A stretch of 55,410 nt of DNA, from contig CAIWUU010000059.1 in the NCBI GenBank assembly GCA_903915955.1, forward strand, positions 1 through 55,410, read 5' to 3'. Source of the stretch: an uncultured Chlorobiaceae bacterium (GTDB lineage Bacteria; Bacteroidota; Chlorobiia; Chlorobiales; Chlorobiaceae). The translations under genes and the position numbers were made by a program. The notes under the pieces were generated by a model that was not told where the DNA came from, did no database searches, and saw only the letters and a program-made list of their open reading frames with translations. This document shows positions 7,892 to 35,350 of this stretch, piece by piece (position 1 is the stretch's first letter; each line of letters begins with the position of its first letter).

Positions 7892-7924
7892 AAAAAAAAA
7901 GCCTCGAATAACGAGGCTTTTTTT
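7892..7924 (-). terminator. Intrinsic terminator after tsf
   Basis: A perfect 9-bp stem, AAAGCCTCG / CGAGGCTTT, with a 5-base loop, flanked by A and T runs on both sides. It lies a few bases after the tsf stop codon and ends the rpsB-tsf transcript ahead of pyrH. The flanking runs would let it act in both directions. Confidence 0.88.
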
Positions 7925-7928
7925 CTGC

Positions 7929-8795
7929 TTATACTCCCAACTGATAGCGAACAAAACCAATTACATCTACCTTCGCCTGATGCTTTTTTCGACAATCGCT
8001 GAGCACGCCTGATACCTTTGCCTTGTCATCCTTGATAAAGGTCTGCTCACCAAGCACGACATCCTGATAGTACTTTTCAAGCCTGCCAAGAACAATTTTG
8101 TCGACAAATTCCTCTTTTTTACCCTGTTCAAGAGCCTGCTGGCGATAGATTTCAGACTCTCTTGCTATATAGTCGGCAGGCACACAGGAGCGGTCAACAA
8201 CCACTGGCGAGGCAGCGGCAACCTGCATGGCAAGATCTCTGGCCAACTCCCTGACAACATCAGGTTTGTCGGTATCAACATGAATGATAGCGCCAAGTTT
8301 TGCACCGGGATGAATATAACCCTCCACAAGCCCATTAGGCGCATCAAAAAAAGCAAGTCGCTTGAGATTTATCTTTTCACCCAATTTGCCGGTCATCGTC
8401 TTCATGGCGTCATCCACAGTTTCGCCACCATACGTTTCTCCGAGTGTGAGTGCCATAAGAGCTTCAGGCGAAGTTGTACGGTTTGCCAGGGCAAGATCAC
8501 CAAGCGCTGCAACAAAACCAGTAAAGTCCTCACCGCGAGCAACAAAATCGGTCTCGCAGTTCAGTTCGAGAATAACGCCACTCTTGTGGTCCGGGGTTAT
8601 CTTGATGCTCACCATACCCTCATTCGCATCCCTGTCCGCACGTTTCGCGGCAAGAGCTGCTCCTTTCTTGCGCAGAAAGTCAATAGCCTGCTGCACATCC
8701 CCACCTGTTTCATCAAGGGCTTTCTTGCAGTCCATCATCCCTGCACCTGTTATATCACGAAGATTTTTTACATCTTTTGCTGAAGTCTGGCTCAT
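7929..8795 (-). CDS. tsf: Translation elongation factor Ts
   Basis: A 288-residue EF-Ts, the nucleotide exchange factor that recycles EF-Tu-GDP. The N-terminal UBA-like module carries [16 protein letters not shown], and the core has the TDF segment in [15 protein letters not shown], with [23 protein letters not shown] later on. Length and order are standard. It follows rpsB after 33 bp as a two-gene unit closed by a terminator. Confidence 0.98.
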
Positions 8796-8828
8796 TGAAA
8801 TTTTACTCTTAATATTATATAACGTTGA

Positions 8829-9590
8829 TTATTCGCTGATCTCTTCTTTTTCAACATCGACATCAACTTCCACTTCATCCATCTCGGCCAGAACCTCATT
8901 TTCGACTTTCAGCTCACGTGCCTTGATAACGGTATCAGCAACAGCCTTAACCATAAGCTGAATAGAGCGAATGGCATCATCATTGGCCGGAATGACATAA
9001 TCGACCAGTTCAGGATCGCAGTTGGTGTCAACCATAGCAAAAATGGGAATACCGAGCGAACGAGCCTCCTTGATAGCAATATGCTCTTTCTTGATGTCAA
9101 CGATAAAGAGTGCAGCAGGAAGCCTTGTCATGGTAGCAATACCACCAAGAATTCTCATAAGCTTCTCTTTCTCGCGACCAAGCATGAGGCGCTCTTTCTT
9201 TGTAATCATATCATAAGTACCGTCAGTGGCCATCCTGTCAATGGAGTTCATACGCCTGATGCTCTGACGGATAGTCTGGAAGTTGGTGAGCATACCGCCC
9301 AGCCAGCGCTCGCAGACATAAGGCATTCCAGCACGTCCCGCCTGTTCGGCAATAATGTGCTTGGCCTGTTTTTTTGTTCCTACAAACATAATCTCCCTGC
9401 CAGTCTGCGCAATAGCGTCAAGAGCCTTGAGCGCATCATCAGCAAGGACAACGGTTTTCTGCAAATCAATAATATGAACACCGTTTTTTTCCATGAAAAT
9501 GTACGGTTTCATTTTCGGACACCAACGACGTGCAAGGTGACCGAAGTGGACTCCTGCGCGGAGCATCTCTTCAAGCTGAAAATGTGACAT
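8829..9590 (-). CDS. rpsB: 30S ribosomal protein S2
   Basis: A 253-residue S2 protein of the small subunit, with [19 protein letters not shown] at the start, [25 protein letters not shown] and [14 protein letters not shown]. The C-terminal tail is strongly acidic (a [13 protein letters not shown]-type run), as in some Bacteroidetes/Chlorobi S2 proteins. It heads the rpsB-tsf unit. A GC-rich hairpin in the upstream DNA may be part of its leader. Confidence 0.98.
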
Positions 9591-9637
9591 AGCGACCTTT
9601 TTTGTGATTTAGTTATTCCTCTACCATGTCGTTACTG

Positions 9638-9673
9638 TCCGGTATCCGGCGCAAGGCGCCAGACACTTCCGGA
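9638..9673 (-). promoter_or_regulatory. Candidate structured leader of rpsB
   Basis: Nested inverted repeats lie 48-83 bases upstream of the rpsB start: outer arms TCCGG/CCGGA, inner arms GGCGC/GCGCC closed by a 3-base loop. No T run follows, so it is not a simple terminator for rpsI. S2 binds the leader of its own mRNA in several bacteria, so autogenous control is possible here. This is inference from position and pairing only. Confidence 0.35.
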
Positions 9674-9760
9674 AAGCTTCGTCTGAACTGCAATATTCAG
9701 ACTGTCATGATATGCGAAGTTGTGTTCTGAAATTGTACAATACAACAAGACTGCGCCAGA

Positions 9761-10150
9761 TTAACGTTTTGAGAACTGGAAACGTTTGCGTGCTTTTTTA
9801 CGTCCAAATTTCTTGCGTTCAACCATGCGGGGATCTCTGGTCAACAGCTTCTCAGTTTTAAGAATGGCGCGAGCCGCCTCGTCAAACTCGGTAAGCGCAC
9901 GGGCAATAGCAAGGCTCACTGCACCTGACTGGCCGGTAACACCGCCACCCTGAACATTGACCTTGATATCAAACTCTTCCATTTTTTCAGTAATCACAAG
10001 AGGCCGGAGAGCCTGCTGGCGTTTGAATTCGTCTTTAAAATACTCCTCAACCGGCAGCTTGTTGATAATAACCCGACCTTTGCCTGGAGTTAAAAAAGCT
10101 CGAGCCACCGAGGTCTTACGGCGTCCAACTGTATCGATAACCTCTTTCAT
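9761..10150 (-). CDS. rpsI: 30S ribosomal protein S9
   Basis: A 129-residue S9 protein, starting [19 protein letters not shown] and ending in the basic tail [17 protein letters not shown], whose last residues reach the P-site tRNA in the ribosome. [19 protein letters not shown] is the conserved core. The ATG at 10150 is preferred over the one two codons upstream because the family starts with this shorter form. It follows rplM by 18 bp in the conserved rplM-rpsI operon. Confidence 0.97.
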
Positions 10151-24254: not shown

Positions 24255-27254
24255 ATGACTACTGAAAACAAGATCGAACTGAGCCTGATAGCCAAGCTCA
24301 GGGATCTCAAATACATCTATCGGGAAGATATACGGGATCGTGCCGGGCTGGAGAAGAACTTCCGCGAAAAGTTTGAATCGCTCAACAGGGTTCATCTGAC
24401 CGATGCAGAGTTCGCTCGACTGCTGGATCAGATTGTCACCCCGGATGTCTTTGCTGCAGCCCGCCATCTGCGCGAACGCAACAGCTTCGACCGTGACGAC
24501 GGCACACCGCTCTTCTACACCCTGGTCAACATCAAGGAGTGGTGCAAAAACAGCTTTGAGGTGGTGAACCAGCTCCGCATTAACACTGATAACAGCCATC
24601 ATCGTTATGACGTGCTGCTCCTTATCAACGGCGTACCGGTGGTACAAATTGAGCTGAAAACCCTCGCCATCAGCCCGCGCACAGCCATGCAGCAGATCGT
24701 CGATTACAAAAACGACCCCGGCAACGGCTACACCAAAACCCTCCTCTGCTTTCTGCAACTCTTCATCGTCAGCAACCGCACCGATACCTGGTACTTCGCC
24801 AACAACAACAGCCGCCACTTCAGCTTCAACGCTGATGAGCGTTTTCTGCCGCTCTACCAGTTTGCCGGAGAAGACAACAAGAAGATTACTCATCTCGACA
24901 GTTTTGCCGAGAAGTTCCTCGCCAAATGCACCTTGGGCGAAATGATAAGCCGATACATGGTGCTGGTGGCCAGCGAGCAGAAGCTGATGATGATGCGCCC
25001 TTACCAGATTTATGCTGTCAAGGCAATCGTGGAGTGTATTCATCAGAACTCCGGCAACGGCTACGTCTGGCACACCACCGGCAGTGGCAAGACGCTCACC
25101 TCCTTCAAGGCATCCACCCTGCTCAAGGATAACCCCGATATTGACAAATGCCTCTTTGTGGTAGACCGCAAAGACCTCGACCGACAGACGCGGGAAGAGT
25201 TCAACCGCTTTCAGGAGAACTGCGTCGAAGAGAACACCAACACCGAAACCCTGGTGCAGCGGCTGCTCTCCAATGATTATGCCAACAAGGTGATTGTTAC
25301 CACCATCCAGAAGCTCGGTCTTGCCCTTGATGGCAGCAATAAACGCAACTACAAGGAACGGCTGGAACCGCTGCGTAAAAAGCGCATGGTCTTCATCTTC
25401 GACGAATGCCACCGCTCCCAATTCGGCGACAACCACAAGGCCATCAAGGAATTTTTCCCCAACGCCCAGCTCTTCGGCTTCACCGGTACGCCAATCTTTT
25501 CAGAAAATGCCAGTTATCAACAGATTGAGGGGCAGCAGGGCTCTTTTATCACCACAGCAGAGATCTTTCAGCAGCAACTGCACGCCTACACTATCACGCA
25601 CGCCATTGAAGACCGCAACGTCCTGCGCTTCCACGTCGACTATTTCAGGCCCGAAGGCAAGAACAGGCCAAAGCCGGGGGAGGCGCTTACCAAGAGAGCC
25701 ATTGTTGAGGCCATTCTCGAAAAACACGACACTGCCACCTACGGGCGCAAGTTCAACGCCATTCTGGCTACGGCCTCCATCAACGATGCCATTGCCTATC
25801 ATGAGCTGTTCAAGAGCATTCAGGCCGAAAAGCAAGCCAAAGAGAGCAACTTTCAGCCACTGAACATCGCCTGTGTCTTTTCGCCTCCCGCGCAGGCTAT
25901 TGCTGGTGATGCCGGGAATCGAAACGAAAAGAATGTGGCAGACATCAAGCAGCTCCAGGAAGATCTGCCGCAGGAGAAGGCCGACAACCAGGTTGCCCCG
26001 GATGAAAAAAAGGTGGCCCTCAAAGCCATCATTGCCGACTACAACACCAACTACGGCGCCAACCACCGCATCGACGAATTCGACCTCTACTATTCGGATG
26101 TGCAAAAGCGCATCAAAGATCAGCAATACCCCAATCAGGACTTGCCGCATGCGCAGAAGATCGACATCGTGATTGTGGTGGATATGCTGCTTACCGGTTT
26201 TGACTCCAAATTCCTGAACACCATCTACGTCGATAAAAACCTGAAGTACCACGGGCTGATTCAGGCCTTCTCACGCACCAACCGTGTACTGAACGATACC
26301 AAGCCCTACGGCAGCATTCTCGACTTCCGCCAGCAGCAAAGCGCGGTCAACGATGCCATCGCCCTCTTTTCCGGTGAGCAAGCCGACCGCGCCCGCGAAA
26401 TCTGGCTGGTTGATTCCGCCCCGGTGGTCATCAACAAACTGGAAAGTGCGGTTAAAAAGCTGGCCGAATTCATGCAATCCCAGGGGCTGGCAAGCGCCCC
26501 GGAAGAGGTGGCAAACCTTAAGGGCGATGCAGCACGCGGCCAGTTCATCAACCTCTTCAAGGAGGTGCAGCGCCTCAAAACCCAGCTTGACCAATACACC
26601 GACCTGACGGCGGAAAACGCCCTCAGCATCGCGCAGGTCATACCGCCGGAGCAGTTGCAGGCCTTCCGTGGAGTCTATCTCGAAACCGCCCAGCGGCTGA
26701 AAGAAAAAAAGAGCAAAAGCAACGACGGCCCGGAAGAGGAGCAACTCGATTTTGAATTCGTGCTCTTTGCCTCCGCCATGATTGATTACGACTACATCAT
26801 GGGCCTCATTACAAGCTACTCGCAGCAGACACCCGGCAAGCAAAAGATGAGCCGCACCGAACTTATCGGTTTGATTGCATCCGAGGCCAACCTTCTTGAG
26901 GTGCGCGAAGAGATCGCCGACTATATCGGCACCCTCAAGTCAGGCGAAGGGTTGAAAGAGAGTGAGGTTCGTCAGGGTTACGAAACCTTCAGGGCCGAAA
27001 AAAACGCCCGTCAACTGGCTGACATTGCCGAAAAGCACGGGCTGGAAACCTCCGCGCTTCAAGCCTTTGTAGATACCATCATGCAGCGGATGATCTTCGA
27101 CGGCGAACGGTTGACCGATCTACTCGCTCCGCTGGGGCTGAACTGGAAAAGCAGAAGACAAAAAGAGCTGGCATTGATGGAGGAGCTGATTCCGTTGCTG
27201 CACAAACTTGCGCAAGGGCGGGAAATTTCGGGGTTGGAGGGGTATGAGCAATAA
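24255..27254 (+). CDS. hsdR: Type I restriction enzyme R subunit
   Basis: A 999-residue HsdR. The N-terminal nuclease domain shows the PD-(D/E)xK pattern (RYDVLLLI near residue 117 and QIELK near 131). The motor has Walker A TTGSGKT near 274, DECHRSQFG near 383, FGFTGTPIF, and later DMLLTGFDSKFL and QAFSRTNRV. The C-terminal helical region that contacts the HsdM/HsdS core is present. It cuts unmodified DNA after ATP-driven translocation. The length is normal and no break is visible. Its stop overlaps the next small frame, so the R gene leads the operon. Confidence 0.96.
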   Translation: MTTENKIELSLIAKLRDLKYIYREDIRDRAGLEKNFREKFESLNRVHLTDAEFARLLDQIVTPDVFAAARHLRERNSFDRDDGTPLFYTLVNIKEWCKNSFEVVNQLRINTDNSHHRYDVLLLINGVPVVQIELKTLAISPRTAMQQIVDYKNDPGNGYTKTLLCFLQLFIVSNRTDTWYFANNNSRHFSFNADERFLPLYQFAGEDNKKITHLDSFAEKFLAKCTLGEMISRYMVLVASEQKLMMMRPYQIYAVKAIVECIHQNSGNGYVWHTTGSGKTLTSFKASTLLKDNPDIDKCLFVVDRKDLDRQTREEFNRFQENCVEENTNTETLVQRLLSNDYANKVIVTTIQKLGLALDGSNKRNYKERLEPLRKKRMVFIFDECHRSQFGDNHKAIKEFFPNAQLFGFTGTPIFSENASYQQIEGQQGSFITTAEIFQQQLHAYTITHAIEDRNVLRFHVDYFRPEGKNRPKPGEALTKRAIVEAILEKHDTATYGRKFNAILATASINDAIAYHELFKSIQAEKQAKESNFQPLNIACVFSPPAQAIAGDAGNRNEKNVADIKQLQEDLPQEKADNQVAPDEKKVALKAIIADYNTNYGANHRIDEFDLYYSDVQKRIKDQQYPNQDLPHAQKIDIVIVVDMLLTGFDSKFLNTIYVDKNLKYHGLIQAFSRTNRVLNDTKPYGSILDFRQQQSAVNDAIALFSGEQADRAREIWLVDSAPVVINKLESAVKKLAEFMQSQGLASAPEEVANLKGDAARGQFINLFKEVQRLKTQLDQYTDLTAENALSIAQVIPPEQLQAFRGVYLETAQRLKEKKSKSNDGPEEEQLDFEFVLFASAMIDYDYIMGLITSYSQQTPGKQKMSRTELIGLIASEANLLEVREEIADYIGTLKSGEGLKESEVRQGYETFRAEKNARQLADIAEKHGLETSALQAFVDTIMQRMIFDGERLTDLLAPLGLNWKSRRQKELALMEELIPLLHKLAQGREISGLEGYEQ

Positions 27255-27501
27255 TAAACTACAAGGGAATGAGGTGAACACACTCGCGACACAACAAGAG
27301 TTTTGCAATAAAAACCGGTGGCGCATGAAGCAATGTTATGAAATATGGCAGGCGGATGAAAAACTCTCACCACTGGTGAGAGAATTGCACTGGACACACA
27401 ACACCCTCATTTTTTGGCGATGCAAGAGTTCTAAACTGCATGAGTTTTATGCCAATGAAGATGCTTTGGATTGGGAAACGCAACAAGGGTGTGAATTATG
27501 A
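27244..27501 (+). pseudogene. DUF1016 (YhcG-type) nuclease N-terminal fragment
   Basis: An 85-codon frame that begins inside the hsdR end and ends in a 4-bp ATGA overlap with hsdS. It holds FCNKNRWRMKQCYEIW, LSPLVRELHWTHNTLIFWRCK and LHEFYANE, which match part of the DUF1016 N-terminal domain of YhcG-type proteins. Full family members are around 330-360 residues and have a C-terminal PD-(D/E)xK nuclease, which is absent here. It may still be translated as a coupling peptide between hsdR and hsdS. Confidence 0.75.
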
Positions 27502-28655
27502 ATGTGCCCAAGCTGCGGTTTCCTGAGTTTCAGGAAAAGTGGAAAGAAGATAGGTTGGGAGTAATTTGTGATAGTATCTCATCAGGGAAAGACAAAAGTG
27601 ATCCTGATGGCGCATACGATTTATTTGGCTCAACAGGAGTTATCGGAAAAACGTCAAGTGATACTTTTGATGGTAAATTTCTTTTGGTTGCCAGAGTTGG
27701 AGCAAATGCCGGACTTTTAACAATAGCAATTGGGAAATTTGGTGTAACCGATAACACGCTGGTTATTTACCTTAAAAAGCCAGCCTGTATTGATTTCGTT
27801 TTCTATTATCTGGAAAGCTTGAGATTAAATAGACTTGTTTTTGGTTCAGGTCAGCCTTTGATCACAGGCGGACAATTAAAAGCACTACCCCTTTTTCTTC
27901 CAAACAACTCTGAGCAACAAAAAATCGCCGACAGCCTTTCATCCATCGATGACCTGATCACCGCCCAAACCCAAAAGCTCGTCACGCTCAAAACCCATAA
28001 AAAAGGGCTGATGCAGCAGCTTTTCCCGGCAGAAGGCGAAACCCTGCCCAAGCTGCGCTTTCCTGAATTTCAGGATGATTGGGTAATTAAAAAACTGGGC
28101 GAGCTTGGCAAGCTAATTGGCGGTGGAACGCCAGACAAATCAGTGGCAGAATATTGGCAGGGCGAGATTCCTTGGGTTTCAAGCTCTGACATATACGAAG
28201 ATGATATCAATACTATTTCAGTCACAAGATTTATCAATGAGAAATCAATATCGGAATCTGCAACAAAAAAAGTTCCAAAGGGAAGTGTTTTGTTTGTTTC
28301 AAGAGTTGGTACCGGGAAGTTGGCTATAAATGATAATGATGTGTGTACAAGCCAAGACTTTATGAACTTCATGCCTAAGAAAATTTACAACTATTACCTT
28401 GGGTATTTTTTTATTGTAAATAAATCAGCTCTGATATCTTTAGGTCAAGGCACATCAATCAAAGGATTTTCTAAAGGTGATTTAGAGAAACTTGAAGTAA
28501 GTTACCCCGGGGATCTCGAGCAACAAAAAATCGCCGACTGCCTTTCATCCATCGACGACTTGATCACCGCACAAAGCCAAAAGATCGACATACTCAAAGC
28601 CCATAAAAAAGGGCTCATGCAGCAGCTCTTCCCGGCAATTGACAGCAAGGAGTAA
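27498..28655 (+). CDS. hsdS: Type I restriction-modification specificity subunit
   Basis: A 385-residue HsdS with two target-recognition domains (residues about 5-135 and 185-335), each followed by a long helix of the conserved type. Both helices share QQKIADSLSSIDDLITAQ-like and HKKGLMQQLFPA segments, and each half opens with PKLRFPEFQ. The subunit sets the methylation and cleavage sequence for the HsdM/HsdR complex; the sequence recognised cannot be deduced. It overlaps the DUF1016 fragment by 4 bp. Its 3' end is partly copied elsewhere in the island. Confidence 0.95.
   Translation: MNVPKLRFPEFQEKWKEDRLGVICDSISSGKDKSDPDGAYDLFGSTGVIGKTSSDTFDGKFLLVARVGANAGLLTIAIGKFGVTDNTLVIYLKKPACIDFVFYYLESLRLNRLVFGSGQPLITGGQLKALPLFLPNNSEQQKIADSLSSIDDLITAQTQKLVTLKTHKKGLMQQLFPAEGETLPKLRFPEFQDDWVIKKLGELGKLIGGGTPDKSVAEYWQGEIPWVSSSDIYEDDINTISVTRFINEKSISESATKKVPKGSVLFVSRVGTGKLAINDNDVCTSQDFMNFMPKKIYNYYLGYFFIVNKSALISLGQGTSIKGFSKGDLEKLEVSYPGDLEQQKIADCLSSIDDLITAQSQKIDILKAHKKGLMQQLFPAIDSKE
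27505..27534 (+). repeat. Short direct repeat, hsdS first half (copy 1)
   Basis: This 30-base stretch encoding PKLRFPEFQ is repeated at 28045-28074 with two mismatches. Each copy comes just before a target-recognition domain, so recombination between copies could swap or delete one domain. Confidence 0.85.
27912..28031 (+). repeat. hsdS conserved-helix repeat, copy A
   Basis: A 120-base stretch encoding the first conserved helix of HsdS. A matching 120-base copy lies at 28518-28637, and its last 75 bases appear again at 29413-29487. The copies are highly similar at the DNA level. Confidence 0.9.
28045..28074 (+). repeat. Short direct repeat, hsdS second half (copy 2)
   Basis: This is the second copy of the PKLRFPEFQ-coding 30-base repeat, placed in front of the second target-recognition domain. 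Confidence 0.85.
28518..28637 (+). repeat. hsdS conserved-helix repeat, copy B
   Basis: This 120-base copy encodes the second conserved helix at the HsdS C-terminus and has the same length as copy A. Most differences fall in the middle (AQSQKIDILKAH against AQTQKLVTLKTH). Confidence 0.9.
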
Positions 28656-28784: not shown

Positions 28785-29213
28785 ATGAAACTCTATCTTG
28801 ATAACTGCGTTTTTAACCGGCCTTTTGATGTACAATCCAACATCAAAACATTGCTGGAAACAGAAGCCAAGCTGAACATTCAGGAAAACATCCGCAGAGG
28901 AAACCATGAACTGGTTTGGTCATACATCCTTGATTATGAAAATCTGAAAAACCCTTTTCAGGAAAGACAGGAGCAAATTGCAAAATGGAAGCATTATGCA
29001 AAAATTCAGATTGAAGCAGAGGATAGTCTTATTCAACGGGCAAAGTCACTCAAGGAATCAGGGTTGAAATCCTTTGATGCTTTGCATGTTGCTTGCGCGA
29101 TTACGGCAGGCGCAGAGTATTTTTTGACGACAGACATGGGAATTCTTAAAAAAGCAGCAATCATTCGTGATATTCAGATCAAAAACCCTATAGACTTCAT
29201 CAGAGAGGTATAA
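28785..29213 (+). CDS. PIN-domain ribonuclease, probable toxin
   Basis: A 142-residue PIN-fold protein. The acidic residues expected for metal binding appear in LYLDNCVF (near residue 5), SFDALHVACA (near 97) and TTDMGILKK (near 116). PIN toxins of the VapC group cut RNA, often tRNA. The gene is followed after 2 bp by a 66-residue frame that looks like its antitoxin, so the toxin comes first, reversed from the common vapBC order. It sits inside a restriction operon, between hsdS and hsdM. Confidence 0.85.
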   Translation: MKLYLDNCVFNRPFDVQSNIKTLLETEAKLNIQENIRRGNHELVWSYILDYENLKNPFQERQEQIAKWKHYAKIQIEAEDSLIQRAKSLKESGLKSFDALHVACAITAGAEYFLTTDMGILKKAAIIRDIQIKNPIDFIREV

Positions 29214-29215
29214 AC

Positions 29216-29416
29216 ATGATTACCGACACAGAAATCAGGGTAAAAGGCATTCAAATTCTTGCCCAATATCTGGGTGATATTGAAATGGAGCGTTTTATCG
29301 CGCTGATTCAACGAGAACCTTTTGACTATACCCAGTGGCGAGAGAGCATGGAGCAAGAGGAGAGCGTTGAAGAGATCAGCCGAAAAGCAATGGCGCACAC
29401 TAAAAATCAGTCATGA
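29216..29416 (+). CDS. Small protein, probable antitoxin of the PIN toxin
   Basis: A 66-residue acidic protein whose ATG lies 2 bp after the PIN stop. It has no recognised DNA-binding motif. The sequence includes GIQILAQYLGDIEMERFIALI and QWRESMEQEESVEEISRKA. Size, spacing and pairing suggest an antitoxin; this is inference. Its last 80 or so bases are copied at 31265-31361 upstream of hsdM. Confidence 0.65.
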   Translation: MITDTEIRVKGIQILAQYLGDIEMERFIALIQREPFDYTQWRESMEQEESVEEISRKAMAHTKNQS

Positions 29417-29508
29417 CCGCACAAACGCAAAAGCTCGCCACGCTCAAGACCCATAAAAAAGGGCTGATGCAGCAGCTTTTCCCGGCAATTGAGGAGGTAT
29501 CAAGCTGA
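29413..29508 (+). pseudogene. Orphan copy of the hsdS 3' end (31 codons)
   Basis: The first 75 bases match the hsdS conserved-helix repeat from ITAQTQKL to QLFPA, and the frame stays open to a stop. The Ile codon of hsdS is an ATG here, and this ATG overlaps the antitoxin stop by 4 bp. The stop in turn overlaps the ATG of the zeta-like gene by one base. The fragment is therefore placed as a coupled mini-gene between two toxin modules. It marks a recombination in which cassettes were inserted behind hsdS. Whether it makes a peptide is unknown. Confidence 0.85.
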
Positions 29509-30026
29509 TGGGTAAAAAAATCATCATTATCGCCGGACCCAATGGAGCAGGAAAAACCTCTTTTGCCCGCACGTTTCTGCCAAAAGAAGCTCAATGCCTG
29601 CGCTTTGTCAATGCCGATCTCATTGCAGCCGGACTGTCACCCTTTGCCCCTGATGTGGCCGCCATCAAAGCAGGGCGCGTCATGTTGGAAGAGATTGCCG
29701 ATTGCGTTCGACGTGAAGAAAGTTTTGCATTTGAAACTACACTATCCGGAATGGGTTATCTGATGCATATCCAGCAATGGCGTACTCAAGGCTTTTTGGT
29801 TAGCCTCTATTTTCTGGCGTTACCCAATGTCGAAGCGGCCATTGCCCGTGTAGCGGAGCGCGTTCGCCAAGGAGGACATAACATTCCTGAACCAGTTATT
29901 CGTCGCCGTTTTATAGCGGGATTGCGTAACTTTGAGCAACACTACAAAGCCGAGGTAGATGATTGGACTAAATACAACAACGCCGGAGAGAGACCGGTTT
30001 TATTAGAATGGGGAGAAAACCTGTGA
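29508..30026 (+). CDS. Zeta-toxin-like P-loop kinase
   Basis: A 172-residue protein with Walker A GPNGAGKTSFA near residue 8, FVNADLIAAGLSPF, and FAFETTLSGMGYL, then AIARVAERVRQGGHNIPEPVIRRRF. This is the ATPase family that includes zeta toxins, which phosphorylate UDP-N-acetylglucosamine and block peptidoglycan synthesis. It is shorter than plasmid zeta proteins, as are most chromosomal relatives. An epsilon antitoxin is not present. The next gene overlaps it by 4 bp and could be the partner. Confidence 0.85.
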   Translation: MGKKIIIIAGPNGAGKTSFARTFLPKEAQCLRFVNADLIAAGLSPFAPDVAAIKAGRVMLEEIADCVRREESFAFETTLSGMGYLMHIQQWRTQGFLVSLYFLALPNVEAAIARVAERVRQGGHNIPEPVIRRRFIAGLRNFEQHYKAEVDDWTKYNNAGERPVLLEWGENL

Positions 30027-30250
30027 ACGCAAAAGATATTTCAAAGGCTAAAAACCCTGACCAGCGTGGTTCATTAGCCGCTCTGCAACGAGCCGCCGCA
30101 TTGGCCCGTGAAACCGCTATTCAAACGAATACCAATATCGTGATTGAAAAAGATGGGAAATTGGTGTGGATTTCAGCGGAAGAACTGCGCCGCCAAGCAT
30201 CAGAGGCAAAAGAATCTATAAATCCCCAGCCTTCCGGCCTGGTATTGTGA
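30023..30250 (+). CDS. Small protein overlapping the zeta-like gene, possible antitoxin
   Basis: A 75-residue protein starting with a GTG that overlaps the zeta-like stop (GTGA). GGGAG lies about 9 bases upstream of this GTG, which favours it over the ATG at 30008. The sequence is helical with RGSLAALQRAAALARETA and then VIEKDGKLVWISAEELRRQ. Small genes of this type often follow chromosomal zeta-like kinases, so a partner or antitoxin role is plausible but unproven. Confidence 0.65.
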   Translation: MNAKDISKAKNPDQRGSLAALQRAAALARETAIQTNTNIVIEKDGKLVWISAEELRRQASEAKESINPQPSGLVL

Positions 30251-30332: not shown

Positions 30333-31211
30333 ATGCTTTTAAAAGATCGTTACATAAACCCCTTTACCGACTTTGGTTTCAAGAAAATCTTTGGCTCTGA
30401 GGTCAACAAAGACCTGCTGATAGCGTTTTTGAATACGCTCTTGCCTGCCGAAGCGGGAACAGTTTCCGATCTTTCATTTTTGCCCAATGAACAGGTTGGG
30501 CGGAGTGAGTACGACCGCAGGGCAATTTTTGACCTTTATTGTGAAAATGAAAAGGGCGAAAAATTCATTGTTGAGATGCAGCGGGCGAAGCAGAACTACT
30601 TCAAAGATCGATCGATTTTTTATGCCACCTTTCCGGTTCAACAGCAGGCACAGAGCGGCTCGTGGAATTTCTGTCTGAAGGCGGTCTACATGGTCGGTAT
30701 TCTTGATTTCGTGTTTGATGAAGATAAAGCTGATAATGAGGTCGTTCACCATGAAGTAAAACTGGTTGATCGTTCCACGGGCGCAGTTTTCTCCGACAAG
30801 CTCACCTTTATTTACCTCGAACTTCCCAAGTTCACGAAAACGATTGATGAGCTTGTTACTGACTTCGACAAATGGTGCTTCCTTCTTCGCCATCTCCCTG
30901 AGCTGACTGACCGACCGGCCTCTCTTCAGGCAAGGGTTTTCCTCAAGGTATTTGAACTGGCAGAAATTGCAAAGTATTCGAGTGTGGAAGCGGCAGCTTA
31001 TGAAGAGAGTCTCAAGGTCTATCGTGACCTGAAGAATGTTGTCGATACCGCTTATGATGAGGGCAAGGTTGAAGGCAAGGCAGAGGGTATTGTTGAGGGA
31101 AGTCAGCAAAAGGCAATGGAAGTTGCAAAAAGCCTTAAAGATGCTGGTCTTGATATCGAAACGATTTCACGTTGTACTGGTCTGCCGATTACTCTTGTGG
31201 ATGGGTTGTAG
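30333..31211 (+). CDS. Rpn-family PD-(D/E)xK nuclease (recombination-promoting type)
   Basis: A 292-residue protein starting MLLKDRYINPFTDFGFKKIFG, the standard opening of Rpn/transposase-31-like proteins. The nuclease core shows RRAIFDLYCEN followed by FIVEMQRAK (Asp, then Glu-x-Gln). A helical tail contains GKVEGKAEGIVEG repeats and ends in a small domain (DIETISRCTGLPITLVDGL). Rpn proteins raise RecA-independent recombination and some act in phage defence. The ATG at 30333 is preferred to that at 30294 because the family begins here. The nearby copied gene ends fit a recombination-active neighbourhood, though a causal link is only inference. Confidence 0.9.
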   Translation: MLLKDRYINPFTDFGFKKIFGSEVNKDLLIAFLNTLLPAEAGTVSDLSFLPNEQVGRSEYDRRAIFDLYCENEKGEKFIVEMQRAKQNYFKDRSIFYATFPVQQQAQSGSWNFCLKAVYMVGILDFVFDEDKADNEVVHHEVKLVDRSTGAVFSDKLTFIYLELPKFTKTIDELVTDFDKWCFLLRHLPELTDRPASLQARVFLKVFELAEIAKYSSVEAAAYEESLKVYRDLKNVVDTAYDEGKVEGKAEGIVEGSQQKAMEVAKSLKDAGLDIETISRCTGLPITLVDGL

Positions 31212-31264
31212 TCAGGGTTTGTGCTCCTTCACTTGGATAGATCAGTGATACGTAGGCTTGCGCT

Positions 31265-31361
31265 GCCCTTTTTTATATCCCAGTGGCGAGAGAGCATGGA
31301 GCAAGGAGAGAGCGTCGAAGAGATCAGCAGAAAAGCGGTGGCGCACAATAAAAATCAGTCA
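31265..31361 (+). repeat. Degenerate copy of the antitoxin 3' end
   Basis: The stretch encodes QWRESMEQGESVEEISRKA and the NKNQS end with its stop, nearly matching 29334-29416. Similarity upstream fades with indels near 31265-31280. It has no start codon of its own and is a dead copy. Confidence 0.85.
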
Positions 31362-31549
31362 TGACCGAACAAGAACAGAACCAACTGCGCAAAGCCATGA
31401 ACGCCGACAACTACGAATTGGCTGCAGAGCAAGAGCTGATGCAGCAGCTTTTTCCATTCGCTGGCGAGGGGGGGCATGGACGCATTGACCTCTTTTCACG
31501 CCGATATCAAAAACATCCTCGAACAGGCGATTCTCTACACAGTGTGTAG
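31361..31549 (+). pseudogene. Chimeric scar: hsdM head joined to hsdS tail
   Basis: A 62-codon frame. Codons 1-25 read MTEQEQNQLRKAMNADNYE and match pieces of the start of HsdM with about three internal deletions. They are followed by ELMQQLFP, which is the end of the HsdS helix, then unrelated codons. Its ATG follows the copied antitoxin stop by the same TCATGA overlap as at 29413. It therefore records several joins between R-M and toxin genes. Confidence 0.8.
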
Positions 31550-31601
31550 AGATTTGAGCTGGAGCCATCTGCGCCCGATCATGCGCCTGGATTTGTCGTA
31601 A
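31476..31601 (+). pseudogene. Second DUF1016 fragment, internally deleted
   Basis: A 41-codon frame begins MDALTSFHADIKNILEQA, a typical DUF1016/YhcG start, and jumps directly to VCRDLSWSHLRPIMRLD, which lies about 80-90 residues later in full proteins. A stop follows. The middle of the domain and the entire nuclease part are missing. It overlaps the chimeric scar in another frame. Confidence 0.75.
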
Positions 31602-31727
31602 GCCATTGACTGTTATTTATTATTGCCACGAAGCCAGCGTGCCCATGTCGATCAACTGGAGAGCGATTTCGACAGGGGCAGTGAAGCAGTTGCCATCGAC
31701 ACTGGGAAAATCAAAAAAGAAGAACCG

Positions 31728-33344
31728 ATGACCGAACAAAACCAGAAACAAATGGGCACTACCCTCTGGGGCATTGCCGACCAACTGCGTGGAGCCATGA
31801 ATGCGGACGACTTCCGCGACTACATGCTCTCGTTCCTTTTCCTGCGCTACCTCTCCGACAACTACGAAACTGCGGCTAAAAAAGAGCTGGGCAGAGATTT
31901 CCCTGACAAGCAAGGGCAGTCCGGCATCACACCGCTGCAACTCTGGTATGACAATAATCCCGACGATTGTGCTGAATTTGAAAAGCAGATGCGCCTCAAG
32001 GTGCATTATGTGATCAAGCCGCAATTCCTTTGGGGCAGCATTGCGGAGATGGCCCGCACGCTAAATGGGGAGTTGCTGCATACCCTGCAAAAAGCCTTCG
32101 ATTACATCGAGAACGAATCTTTTGCCAGTACCTTTCAGGGCTTGTTCTCGGAAATCAACTTGAACTCGGAAAAGCTTGGCAAGCAGTATACCGATCGCAA
32201 TGGCAAGCTTTGCACCATCATCACCAAAATTGCCGAGGGGCTGAAGGAGTTTTCAACAGACAGCGACACCTTGGGCGATGCCTACGAATACCTGATTGGC
32301 CAGTTTGCCGCTGGTTCAGGAAAAAAGGCGGGCGAGTTCTACACGCCGCAGCAGATCTCCAGCATTCTCTCTGCCATTGTCACGCTCGACAGTCAGGAGC
32401 CAGCCACCGGCAAGAAAAAATATCTTGAAAATGTGCTCGACTTTGCCTGCGGATCCGGCTCATTGCTGCTCAATGTGCGCCATCGGATGGGCTCCCACGG
32501 CATCGGCAAAATCTACGGGCAGGAAAAAAACATCACCACCTACAACCTGGCGCGCATGAACATGCTGCTGCACGGGGTGAAAGATTCCGAATTCGAGATT
32601 TTCCACGGCGACACCCTGCTGAACGACTGGGAGATGCTGCGCGAAGCCAACCCGGCCAAAAAGAGACAGTTTGATGCCGTAGTGGCCAATCCCCCCTTCA
32701 GCTATCGCTGGGAACTCACGGACGCGTTGGGCGACGACGTGCGATTCAAGAACTATGGTCTGGCCCCAAAATCCGCCGCCGACTTTGCCTTTCTCCTCCA
32801 CGGTTTCCAATTTCTCGCCAAAGAGGGCACCATGGCCATCATCCTTCCCCACGGTGTGCTCTTCCGTGGCGGTGTGGAGGAGCGTATCCGGACCAAACTG
32901 CTCAAGGACGGCCATATCGACACTGTCATCGGCCTGCCCGCCAACCTCTTTTTTTCCACCGGTATTCCGGTCTGCATTCTGGTGCTGAAAAAATGCAAAA
33001 AGCCCGACGATGTCCTCTTCATCAACGCCAGCGAACACTTTGAGAAAGGGAAACGGCAGAACCGGTTGCGGGAGGATGATATCGAGAAAATTGTTGACAC
33101 CTATCAATTCCGCTGTGAGGAGTTGCGTTACTCTCGACGTGTAACGATGGAAGAGATTGAAAGCAACGGCTACAACCTCAATATTTCACGCTATATCAGC
33201 ACTGCTCAGGAAGAGGTAGAAGTTGACCTTCAAGCTGTCAATAGTGAGCTGGTTGAGATTGAACAGAAAATTGTTGATGCCACCCGGAAGCATAATGAGT
33301 TTCTGAAGGAGCTTGGGCTACCGTTTTTGCCGATGGGCAATTAG
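31728..33344 (+). CDS. hsdM: Type I restriction-modification methyltransferase subunit
   Basis: A 538-residue N6-adenine methyltransferase. The N-terminal helical domain starts MTEQNQKQMGTTLWGIAD. The catalytic domain has the AdoMet loop DFACGSGSLLL near residue 238 and NPPF near 321. A C-terminal coiled coil (ELVEIEQKIVDATRKHNEFL) would join HsdS. The ATG at 31728 is preferred over the TTG at 31623 because it fits the family and has AGAAGAA upstream. It lies about 3.1 kb after hsdS, separated by toxin genes and a scar. With HsdR and HsdS the system looks complete. Confidence 0.96.
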   Translation: MTEQNQKQMGTTLWGIADQLRGAMNADDFRDYMLSFLFLRYLSDNYETAAKKELGRDFPDKQGQSGITPLQLWYDNNPDDCAEFEKQMRLKVHYVIKPQFLWGSIAEMARTLNGELLHTLQKAFDYIENESFASTFQGLFSEINLNSEKLGKQYTDRNGKLCTIITKIAEGLKEFSTDSDTLGDAYEYLIGQFAAGSGKKAGEFYTPQQISSILSAIVTLDSQEPATGKKKYLENVLDFACGSGSLLLNVRHRMGSHGIGKIYGQEKNITTYNLARMNMLLHGVKDSEFEIFHGDTLLNDWEMLREANPAKKRQFDAVVANPPFSYRWELTDALGDDVRFKNYGLAPKSAADFAFLLHGFQFLAKEGTMAIILPHGVLFRGGVEERIRTKLLKDGHIDTVIGLPANLFFSTGIPVCILVLKKCKKPDDVLFINASEHFEKGKRQNRLREDDIEKIVDTYQFRCEELRYSRRVTMEEIESNGYNLNISRYISTAQEEVEVDLQAVNSELVEIEQKIVDATRKHNEFLKELGLPFLPMGN

Positions 33345-33391: not shown

Positions 33392-35350
33392 TCAGAAAGA
33401 GATTTTCAGGCCACCCGTGCAGAAAAAGTCATTTCCACCCGGTTGCCCAATCGTCTGCGACAGGTTCAGCATGATGGAGATTGCGCTCGTAAGATTGGCA
33501 TTGGAGCCAGTAGCGAGCCGGACGAAAGCGTGGTTCGGTGCGCCCGTCGCCGTCCATGAATTGACGATCAGCGGTGCAGAGGTAGCGCTGTATTGGATGA
33601 CACGGTCTGAACCCTCGAAATTGTTTTCGACGGTGAAGTTCAGATAGGAGTCGAGCCTCGTGCTTCCCAGGTCGAAAGCGCAGCGAGCCTGTGCACCCAC
33701 ACTACCGAGCACGGTTTTGGCGGTTTGCTCATTCAGATTGAGAGTGAGAACCGGATCACCATTTTCGCTATAACCGTTAACATGCGCCTGAACATAGGTG
33801 AGCCCTGCAATTGGGCCGAATTTCACTGATGGCGCAACGTCAAAAAGATAGCCACCTTTCAACGCCGCCGCGAAAGTCTCACCGTCCGGCTTGGCGGTGA
33901 TTTTACTGACGATGCCCGAACGGCTGTTGGAATAATTCAGCAAGCCGTAAGACAACAGGCTCTGAAGGAAGAGGTTTTTCTGTGTACAGGTAGCGTAGAG
34001 TCCAAGCTGGTTGGCATCTGCGCTTGTGGTTCCGGCATTCTGGCTCAGGTTCTGAGAGGGATTGTTAAAACTATAGGCCGTGCCAACCATGGCGTCGGAG
34101 GTCAGGCGGTATTCGATGCCGAGCGTTGTGCCAAGGCCGTCCGAATGATACCCTTGCGAATTGTCGCTGGAGGAACGATTGGATACAACGCCATTGCCCT
34201 GCACGAACACGGACCATGAGTTTGACCCGATTCCTGATGCGCCGGAGCTTTTCGCGGTCGCGACGTTGAACAGATCAAGCCGGTCGAACATGGTGCCGAC
34301 AAAGGCATCCGCTACAGTAAACCCAAGCTCGCAGCTTGAGGCGAAAGTCTCAGGGGCGTTGAGGCGATTGGCGATGTAATCCGCCACAATGGCAAAGCCG
34401 GCCGAAGTCAGATGCAACTGATCGACGTAGAATAAATATTCGTTCACCAGGGCTGAATTACCCGGTATCGGGCTTGCTGTAGCGTATGTCAGGCCGTAAA
34501 GCGACGGATTGGCCTTGATATTCGACTCGATCATGGCAAGGTCGACATATTCGACCCGCACGCCTGAGGTGGCTACTTTCGACAGATTTTGCTGCATCAG
34601 GTTATTATAGGTCTGGCTATAGGCCAACCCAACAGCGACCGCCGAACTGGGGTAGTTTGCTGCCTCGGGGAGGCCAGCGACATCGCCTGCGGTGAAAACA
34701 AGCGTTTTGGCACCCGCGCCGACAAGTGCGTTAATTCCAGCTATTGCGTTGTCTGCCGAAGTCGCAGCGAAAGATGAGACGGTCGCCATTGGGCCGCTGG
34801 ATTGATAATAATTGCGCGCGTCATTACCACCGATGTTGAGAGTCACCAACGCATTCGGCGCGATGACATTACCTAAAGCCAGAAAATTTTGCCACTCATA
34901 GGTGAAGCCCGGCAGACCAGGAAATTCATTAGTTGCCCCGGTCTGCGCGCCACCGAGAGCATAATTGTCTTGTGAGATTCCATAAAGGCTCGACAATGTG
35001 TCGACATAATTGGTTCCACCGCTGAACGTTCCAGTTGGATAGATCGAGTTGAGATAAGCGAGTGTGGGTGTACCTGCGTAGCCAGGGGTCGTCGCCATGA
35101 TGTTCAGGATGTTACCATTATCGGCATAGCTATCGCCGAAAGCAACGATCGAGGAAAATTGCCGGGCATTGGCGCAAGCGAAAGGCGCGACGTTCAGGGC
35201 GAGAGCGGTCATCAAGGCGTATCGAACCTTTTTGGGCAACAAATGGCGGAAAAAAAGCGAGACGAAATTGTGATGGCTCATGCCATTCTTTAAAAATCTC
35301 GCCGAATGTTCCAAGAAGAACTCTTTATTGTCCCGTTGAGCCAACTTCAT
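33392..35350 (-). CDS. GDSL-family esterase autotransporter
   Basis: A 652-residue outer-membrane protein. After an extended N-terminus and a signal peptide (MTALALNVAPFACANA region, residues about 45-62) comes an SGNH hydrolase domain: FGDSYADNGN with the nucleophile Ser, then GGNDARN, then DQLHLTSAGF with the catalytic Asp and His. Residues about 370-652 form an autotransporter beta-barrel ending in Phe. Such proteins display a lipase/esterase on the cell surface. Starts at 35350 or 35281 are both possible. The GC-rich, alphaproteobacterial-looking codon choice differs from its neighbours and suggests transfer. I know no standard role for it in green sulfur bacteria. Confidence 0.92.
   Translation of the reverse strand: MKLAQRDNKEFFLEHSARFLKNGMSHHNFVSLFFRHLLPKKVRYALMTALALNVAPFACANARQFSSIVAFGDSYADNGNILNIMATTPGYAGTPTLAYLNSIYPTGTFSGGTNYVDTLSSLYGISQDNYALGGAQTGATNEFPGLPGFTYEWQNFLALGNVIAPNALVTLNIGGNDARNYYQSSGPMATVSSFAATSADNAIAGINALVGAGAKTLVFTAGDVAGLPEAANYPSSAVAVGLAYSQTYNNLMQQNLSKVATSGVRVEYVDLAMIESNIKANPSLYGLTYATASPIPGNSALVNEYLFYVDQLHLTSAGFAIVADYIANRLNAPETFASSCELGFTVADAFVGTMFDRLDLFNVATAKSSGASGIGSNSWSVFVQGNGVVSNRSSSDNSQGYHSDGLGTTLGIEYRLTSDAMVGTAYSFNNPSQNLSQNAGTTSADANQLGLYATCTQKNLFLQSLLSYGLLNYSNSRSGIVSKITAKPDGETFAAALKGGYLFDVAPSVKFGPIAGLTYVQAHVNGYSENGDPVLTLNLNEQTAKTVLGSVGAQARCAFDLGSTRLDSYLNFTVENNFEGSDRVIQYSATSAPLIVNSWTATGAPNHAFVRLATGSNANLTSAISIMLNLSQTIGQPGGNDFFCTGGLKISF

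Follow-up and report, generated by a model that had tools for sequence, protein, structure and literature searches.

A probable decayed seam between accessory gene cassettes in the hsdS-hsdM gap of a Chlorobiaceae type I restriction-modification operon

Why should a few hundred nucleotides immediately upstream of an intact hsdM hold what look like pieces of an antitoxin-like gene, of hsdM itself, of hsdS, and of a DUF1016 gene, one behind the other? The question arises at positions 31265 to 31601 of a 55,410-nucleotide contig from an uncultured Chlorobiaceae bacterium (GenBank CAIWUU010000059.1, assembly GCA_903915955.1; the whole stretch is called the window here), whose draft genome comprises 2.5 Mb over 201 contigs. 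Defense genes cluster, and the entry of extra genes into an intact restriction operon is poorly documented. We consider it probable (roughly 0.8) that two accessory cassettes once met here, within the gap that separates hsdS from hsdM, and that the segment is their decayed seam, formed by incoming DNA that carried an hsdS end, a DUF1016 gene, and hsdM, in that order.

The operon and its variable slot

By gene content, hsdR, hsdS, and hsdM, all of which carry the respective family domains, constitute a type I restriction-modification (R-M) operon (Table 1). The order hsdR-hsdS-variable genes-hsdM is common to the relatives, in which the gap between hsdS and hsdM (the slot) measures about 0.2 to 5 kb. 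The PIN toxin of the window adjoins a small partner gene, and the same pair is found in the slot of genomes G018 and G024; the partner matched no Pfam, NCBIfam, or PADLOC family, and NCBIfam assigned none of the small genes to a family. Positions 31150-31800 showed no site resembling a promoter or terminator. On the minus strand 3' of hsdM, a large frame (33392-35350) reads like a putative GDSL-type autotransporter esterase.

Table 1. Features of the hsd operon and of the segment upstream of hsdM (window coordinates)
Feature	Position	Strand	Remarks
hsdR	24255-27254	+	HSDR_N, SWI2_SNF2, EcoR124_C domains
hsdS, intact	27498-28655	+	Methylase_S, E = 1.1e-46; 3' end is left edge of cassette slot
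PIN-domain toxin (cassette 1: 28785-29416)	28785-29213	+	PIN, E = 3.9e-5
Antitoxin-like small gene (cassette 1)	29216-29416	+	Without family match
Boundary scar A, hsdM-start::hsdS-end hybrid mini-frame, 31 aa	29413-29508	+	
Zeta-type toxin (cassette 2: 29508-30250)	29508-30026	+	Zeta_toxin, E = 5.1e-7
Small zeta partner gene (cassette 2)	30008-30250	+	Adjoins hsdM in relatives
PDDEXK_2/Rpn-family recombination-promoting nuclease gene	30333-31211	+	PF12784, E = 2.2e-72; TIGR01784
Scar part 1, antitoxin-like 3' tail ending TCATGA at old hsdM start	31270-31363	+	
Scar part 2, old hsdM start lacking internal stretches of 33 bp and 51 bp that G018 retains	31361-31430	+	
Scar part 3, hsdS 3' end (LMQQLFPF...) adjoining DUF1016 start	31431-31475	+	
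Scar part 4, DUF1016 (YhcG-type) start and LSWSH segment, lacking 225 bp internally	31476-31601	+	
Remainder of eroded DUF1016 cassette, reaching live hsdM start	31602-31727	+	95-96% identity in G018/G080
hsdM, intact, right edge of slot	31728-33344	+	TIGR00497, E = 2.5e-119

Four parts that exceed shuffled sequence

An earlier note on this DNA had described the segment as a mosaic of an antitoxin tail, a deleted hsdM head, an hsdS end, and a deleted DUF1016 start. All four parts are present in that order, and each of them beats shuffled sequence (1,000 shuffles). The antitoxin-like tail (31279-31372, 91% identical to 29331-29424; z = 38), the hsdM head (31361-31440, resembling the beginning of the intact gene at 31728; z = 7.9), and the DUF1016 remnant (z = 44 to 49) were each equaled by 0 of 1,000 shuffles, and the hsdS end by 0 to 1 of 1,000. 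The repeat finder alone recovers three of the parts, namely, the antitoxin-like tail, the hsdM start, and the hsdS end: it resolves the hsdM head into three colinear pieces (31361-31391, 31380-31412, and 31404-31438, against sequence beginning at 31728, 31780, and 31855) and matches the hsdS tail at 31431-31455 to the hsdS repeats at 28003 and 28609, with 92% identity to the reference copy. Taken alone, the hsdS tail, at only about 25 to 45 nt, is the weakest part; z was 7.7 (0/1,000) against the central hsdS repeat and 5.5 (1/1,000) against the true 3' end. The motif TCATGA is found, as the note had pointed out, at both 29413 and 31361.

The fourth part is indeed a DUF1016 remnant, but it is not merely a start: the LSWSH region is present as well, and sequence of the cassette extends as far as 31727. 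Its open frame at 31476-31601 (MDALTSFHADIKNILEQA plus ILYTVCRDLSWSHLRPIMRLDLS) is weak in Pfam by itself (E = 0.079) and aligns to the DUF1016_N gene of G018 with a single internal 225-bp deletion. Only 126 bp separate the end of this frame from hsdM, and the first 36 nt or so of that interval (31602-31727) still match Nitrosomonas DUF1016.

With the hsdS end contributing, at its shortest, only about 25 nt, one might ask whether chance similarity or an assembly error could account for the mosaic. The shuffle tests refute this, as do the graded forms in independent assemblies and the position-specific recurrence in other bacteria described below, and we regard the probability of either as negligible. 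Since the scar is carried by three separate assemblies (G000, G018, and G080), it is not an assembly chimera. A search of the bacterium's own genome for a second donor locus found none.

Both outer junctions are native elsewhere

The note had also proposed an ancestral arrangement in which the antitoxin gene was followed by R-M genes, and such an arrangement exists: a search of the relatives for intact ancestral orders recovered the antitoxin-hsdM junction, along with scars both less and more decayed than that of the window (G018 and G080, respectively). An antitoxin-like gene or its tail abuts hsdM in eight genomes of the same genus. It lies directly on hsdM (AAAAATCAGT, then C or T, then ATGACC, or close to this) in G010, G012, G019, G024, G061, G068, and G078, and in G003 it abuts, at the same place, an hsdM that is now truncated. 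The order Rpn gene-antitoxin-like tail-hsdM is common to seven relatives; in G068 (locus L071, reverse strand, 7895-9958), the Rpn-type PDDEXK_2 gene and the antitoxin-like tail are tandemly doubled upstream of hsdM. The gene that adjoins hsdM in G013, G014, and G052 is instead the zeta partner. Different cassettes therefore share one slot and one right-hand junction.

The other junction was found by scanning the genome contigs with the DUF1016 protein of G018. This returned 42 loci; most of those from Nitrosomonas, Methylococcales, Acidithiobacillus, and others read hsdR-hsdS-DUF1016-hsdM, an intact native order in Proteobacteria. At least nine of them (L085-L090, L094, L098, and L109) have an hsdS stop that meets or overlaps the start of DUF1016, and the junction between hsdS end and DUF1016 in the scar is the native junction of such loci.

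Because both junctions are native elsewhere, the scar is two native junctions connected by one deletion or illegitimate join inside hsdM/hsdS. The earlier interpretation is supported, with one refinement: the hsdM, hsdS, and DUF1016 pieces are not several independent insertions. They are instead the two halves of one cassette boundary, in which an antitoxin-hsdM start was joined to an hsdS end-DUF1016. The hsdS end of the scar reads QQLFPFADEG in G018, unlike the resident QQLFPAIDSKE, so it probably came in with DUF1016.

Graded decay in relatives

Genome G018 carries, in order, an antitoxin-like gene, an hsdM start of about 50 codons fused to an hsdS end, a DUF1016 N-domain, and hsdM. Neither its 160 bp of hsdM (L016:2720-2880) nor its DUF1016 N-domain is deleted, and the hsdM start is 95% identical over 146 nt to the hsdM of the same locus. 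Its DUF1016 product matches PF17761 (E = 3.8e-37) and thereby shares the N-terminal domain of the DUF1016/YhcG family (PF17761 plus PF06250; PADLOC PDC-S02); the C-terminal PDDEXK nuclease domain (PF06250) was not found in this protein. Unlike the family, all three scar carriers are without the nuclease domain, and the window has also lost an internal part of the N-domain. An insert in the last codons of the antitoxin-like gene of G018 (L016:1397-2705) bears a transposase and is flanked by an apparent TA duplication (IS630/Tc1-like by eye).

The three scars were compared by pairwise alignment. Compared with G018, the window lacks 33 bp and 51 bp from the hsdM start, and its DUF1016 is shorter by 225 bp. 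G080 is a more deleted form that shares the 33-bp and 225-bp deletions, and an extra loss of 57 bp relative to the window removed its remaining hsdM piece and the hsdS end. The seam measures 658 bp in the G018-like form, 367 bp in the window, and 303 bp in G080. Short similar motifs lie at the deletion ends, such as the CGA-CA-GC that flanks the deletion of 225 bp. In the whole series, the five larger deletions (33, 51, 225, 57, and 12 bp) are all divisible by three, which pure neutral decay does not predict, despite the decaying look of the region; indels of 1 bp and 7 bp are also present. Elsewhere in G080 (L069:11376-11430), another hsdM-start::hsdS-end fusion stands behind the zeta partner gene and is followed by an apparent small-gene remnant.

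Similar fusions between other cassettes

The window contains a second such boundary, the hybrid at 29413-29508, which overlaps the antitoxin-like stop (ATGA) and the zeta start (TGATG) and has a close copy in G024 (L021:11808-11905). Independent hsdM-start::hsdS-end fusions of similar form stand between cassettes in Proteobacteria (L138, L141, and L150). In L150, an antitoxin-like homolog (80%) precedes the fusion, which is the same structure as at 29413. The hsdM start and the hsdS end contain a similar stretch of about 20 nt (ATGACCGAACAAAACCAGAA and ATCACCGCACAAAGCCAAAA, 16/20), and the joints at window 29413, in G080, and in L138 fall within it. Antitoxin-like homologs (69 to 80% identity) occupy the same hsdS-hsdM slot in the proteobacterial loci L089, L150, L160, and L165, which suggests an exchange of cassettes between phyla.

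Could the seams have been kept for a function? Short overlapping frames might couple translation between cassettes, with selection holding the frames open. The five multiples of three would fit this idea, as would the stop/start overlaps of the 29413-29508 hybrid with both of its neighbors and the in-frame hybrids of L021, L138, and L141. Nevertheless, the hybrid frame of the 31361 scar has been shifted by the loss of 1 bp, the DUF1016 frame ends at 31601 with 126 bp uncoupled to hsdM behind it, the L150 hybrid is out of frame, and hsdM start and hsdS end share a register that favors in-frame joins without any selection. We therefore find retention for such a function improbable overall: coupling via hybrid frames is possible at 29413 and poorly supported at 31361, where the scar is probably nonfunctional apart from its position upstream of hsdM.

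A possible route of formation

We infer a one-sided recombination step and the following order of events. A cassette normally extends from the hsdS stop codon to the hsdM start codon, often with an overlapping ATGA, and at the outset a cassette ending in the antitoxin-like gene would already have adjoined hsdM. Foreign DNA of the order hsdS end-DUF1016-hsdM would then have recombined in, with the right crossover within shared hsdM sequence; on the left side, an illegitimate join, or one at a short similarity, would have connected the resident hsdM start with the hsdS end of the foreign DNA, giving antitoxin-hsdM start::hsdS end-DUF1016-hsdM. Loss of the DUF1016 nuclease domain would have come later, together with short deletions between similar few-base motifs that shrank the seam. 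The left join appears illegitimate, and the similarity of the two partners within hsdM hides the position of the right one. No fresh complete product, with a second hsdM of full length or with more of hsdS, was seen in the loci examined, so we infer the left-hand join rather than observe it as an event.

Such a route corresponds to homology-facilitated illegitimate recombination as defined in PMC3240628, which predicts that one end, in hsdM, is homologous and that the other, from hsdM start to hsdS end, is illegitimate. The process is known from experiments with introduced DNA, whereas in the present seam it is read from sequence alone. The same boundary might also have resulted if two operons, R-S-antitoxin-M and R-S-DUF1016-M, had stood side by side and a deletion had removed everything between hsdM of the first and the hsdS end of the second. 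A collapse of this kind predicts identical junctions, the joints within the 20-nt similarity would suit it, and the doubled unit of G068 shows that tandem units do form. Yet none of the loci examined showed complete operons in tandem, almost every genome had one hsdM of this family, and an hsdS end unlike the resident one makes a simple local duplication unlikely. Illegitimate recombination yields the join in one step and collapse in two, and the similarity of about 20 nt could guide either. The absence of tandem intermediates mildly favors homology-facilitated illegitimate recombination, and we see the collapse of tandem operons as a possible but somewhat doubtful origin.

Footprints across the slot

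A census covered 78 related loci, in each of which the locus's own hsdM was cut into 120-nt segments and searched for in its own slot. The first 120 nt were found in the slots of 10 of the 78 loci, the second 120 nt in 1, and later segments in none; this amounts to 1 match in about 811 tests for the other hsdM segments (Fisher P = 1.6e-10 versus the hsdM start). There were no antisense hsdM-start footprints and none in 518 kb outside the slots. The hsdS end was present in the slots of 12 of 57 loci before filtering and 8 of 57 after, and the only other hsdS segment with matches was the central repeat, which is homologous to the hsdS end. The matches in L072, L102, L123, and L126 were rejected as a C-rich palindromic repeat that is not hsdS, and an hsdM-head match in L105 was left out because it represents another hsdM family and is located 5' of hsdS.

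Four loci have an hsdM head without a body, and in the three whose downstream DNA was covered no second intact hsdM was found there. Footprints occurred in 14 of the 48 slots that hold two reading frames or more versus 0 of the 18 that hold one. Some of the loci share ancestry (the three Chlorobiaceae scars, and likewise window 29413 and G024), and the independent count is therefore lower than the raw one; separate cases are a Nitrosovibrio-labelled MAG, Nitrosomonas, Acidithiobacillus, and several gammaproteobacterial loci.

Taken more broadly, the gap between hsdS and hsdM in this widespread type I R-M family may be a site of cassette accretion, a proposition that we judge to be evenly balanced. 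New defense or toxin cassettes would be added behind old ones, anchored in conserved hsdM, with the other end guided by the similarity between the first codons of hsdM and the last repeat of hsdS, and every boundary would carry a datable footprint. If this is true, accretion would be a route of gene-cassette stacking that needs no integrase and works across phyla. The seams directly record the order of additions, the shared sequence used, and the erosion of leftovers, and seams of hsdM start and hsdS end in unrelated bacteria document how defense operons gather extra genes. For annotation, short frames 5' of hsdM may be seams and not genes.

Accessory genes embedded in R-M operons or their neighborhoods, such as prrC (EcoprrI), RhuM, Fic/Doc, and HEPN, are already known (PMC3874165, PMC12707154, PMC3710099), and the present operon resembles embedded-gene type I R-M operons in having defense or toxin-like genes inside the hsd operon; across the loci, the slot holds DUF1016/YhcG, AAA_13 (PrrC/RloC-like), RhuM, Fic, PIN, and zeta genes. 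The portions of those papers that were consulted cover the genes, and no hsdM-start/hsdS-end footprints between stacked cassettes were found in them; nor was any description of such seams found in the literature searched. The 104 slot proteins gave 24 matches to DUF1016_N, 22 to YhcG_C, 22 to AAA_13, 11 to RhuM, 6 to PIN, 6 to DUF559, 5 to zeta, 5 to Bro-N, and 4 to Fic, in a sample skewed to DUF1016 because many loci were found using DUF1016. The C-rich palindromic repeat (CACCCCGCCCCTTCGGGGCACCCCTCC...), which lies after hsdS and beside small genes in L017, L072, L102, L123, and L126, occurs in both Chlorobiaceae and Proteobacteria and is possibly mobile.
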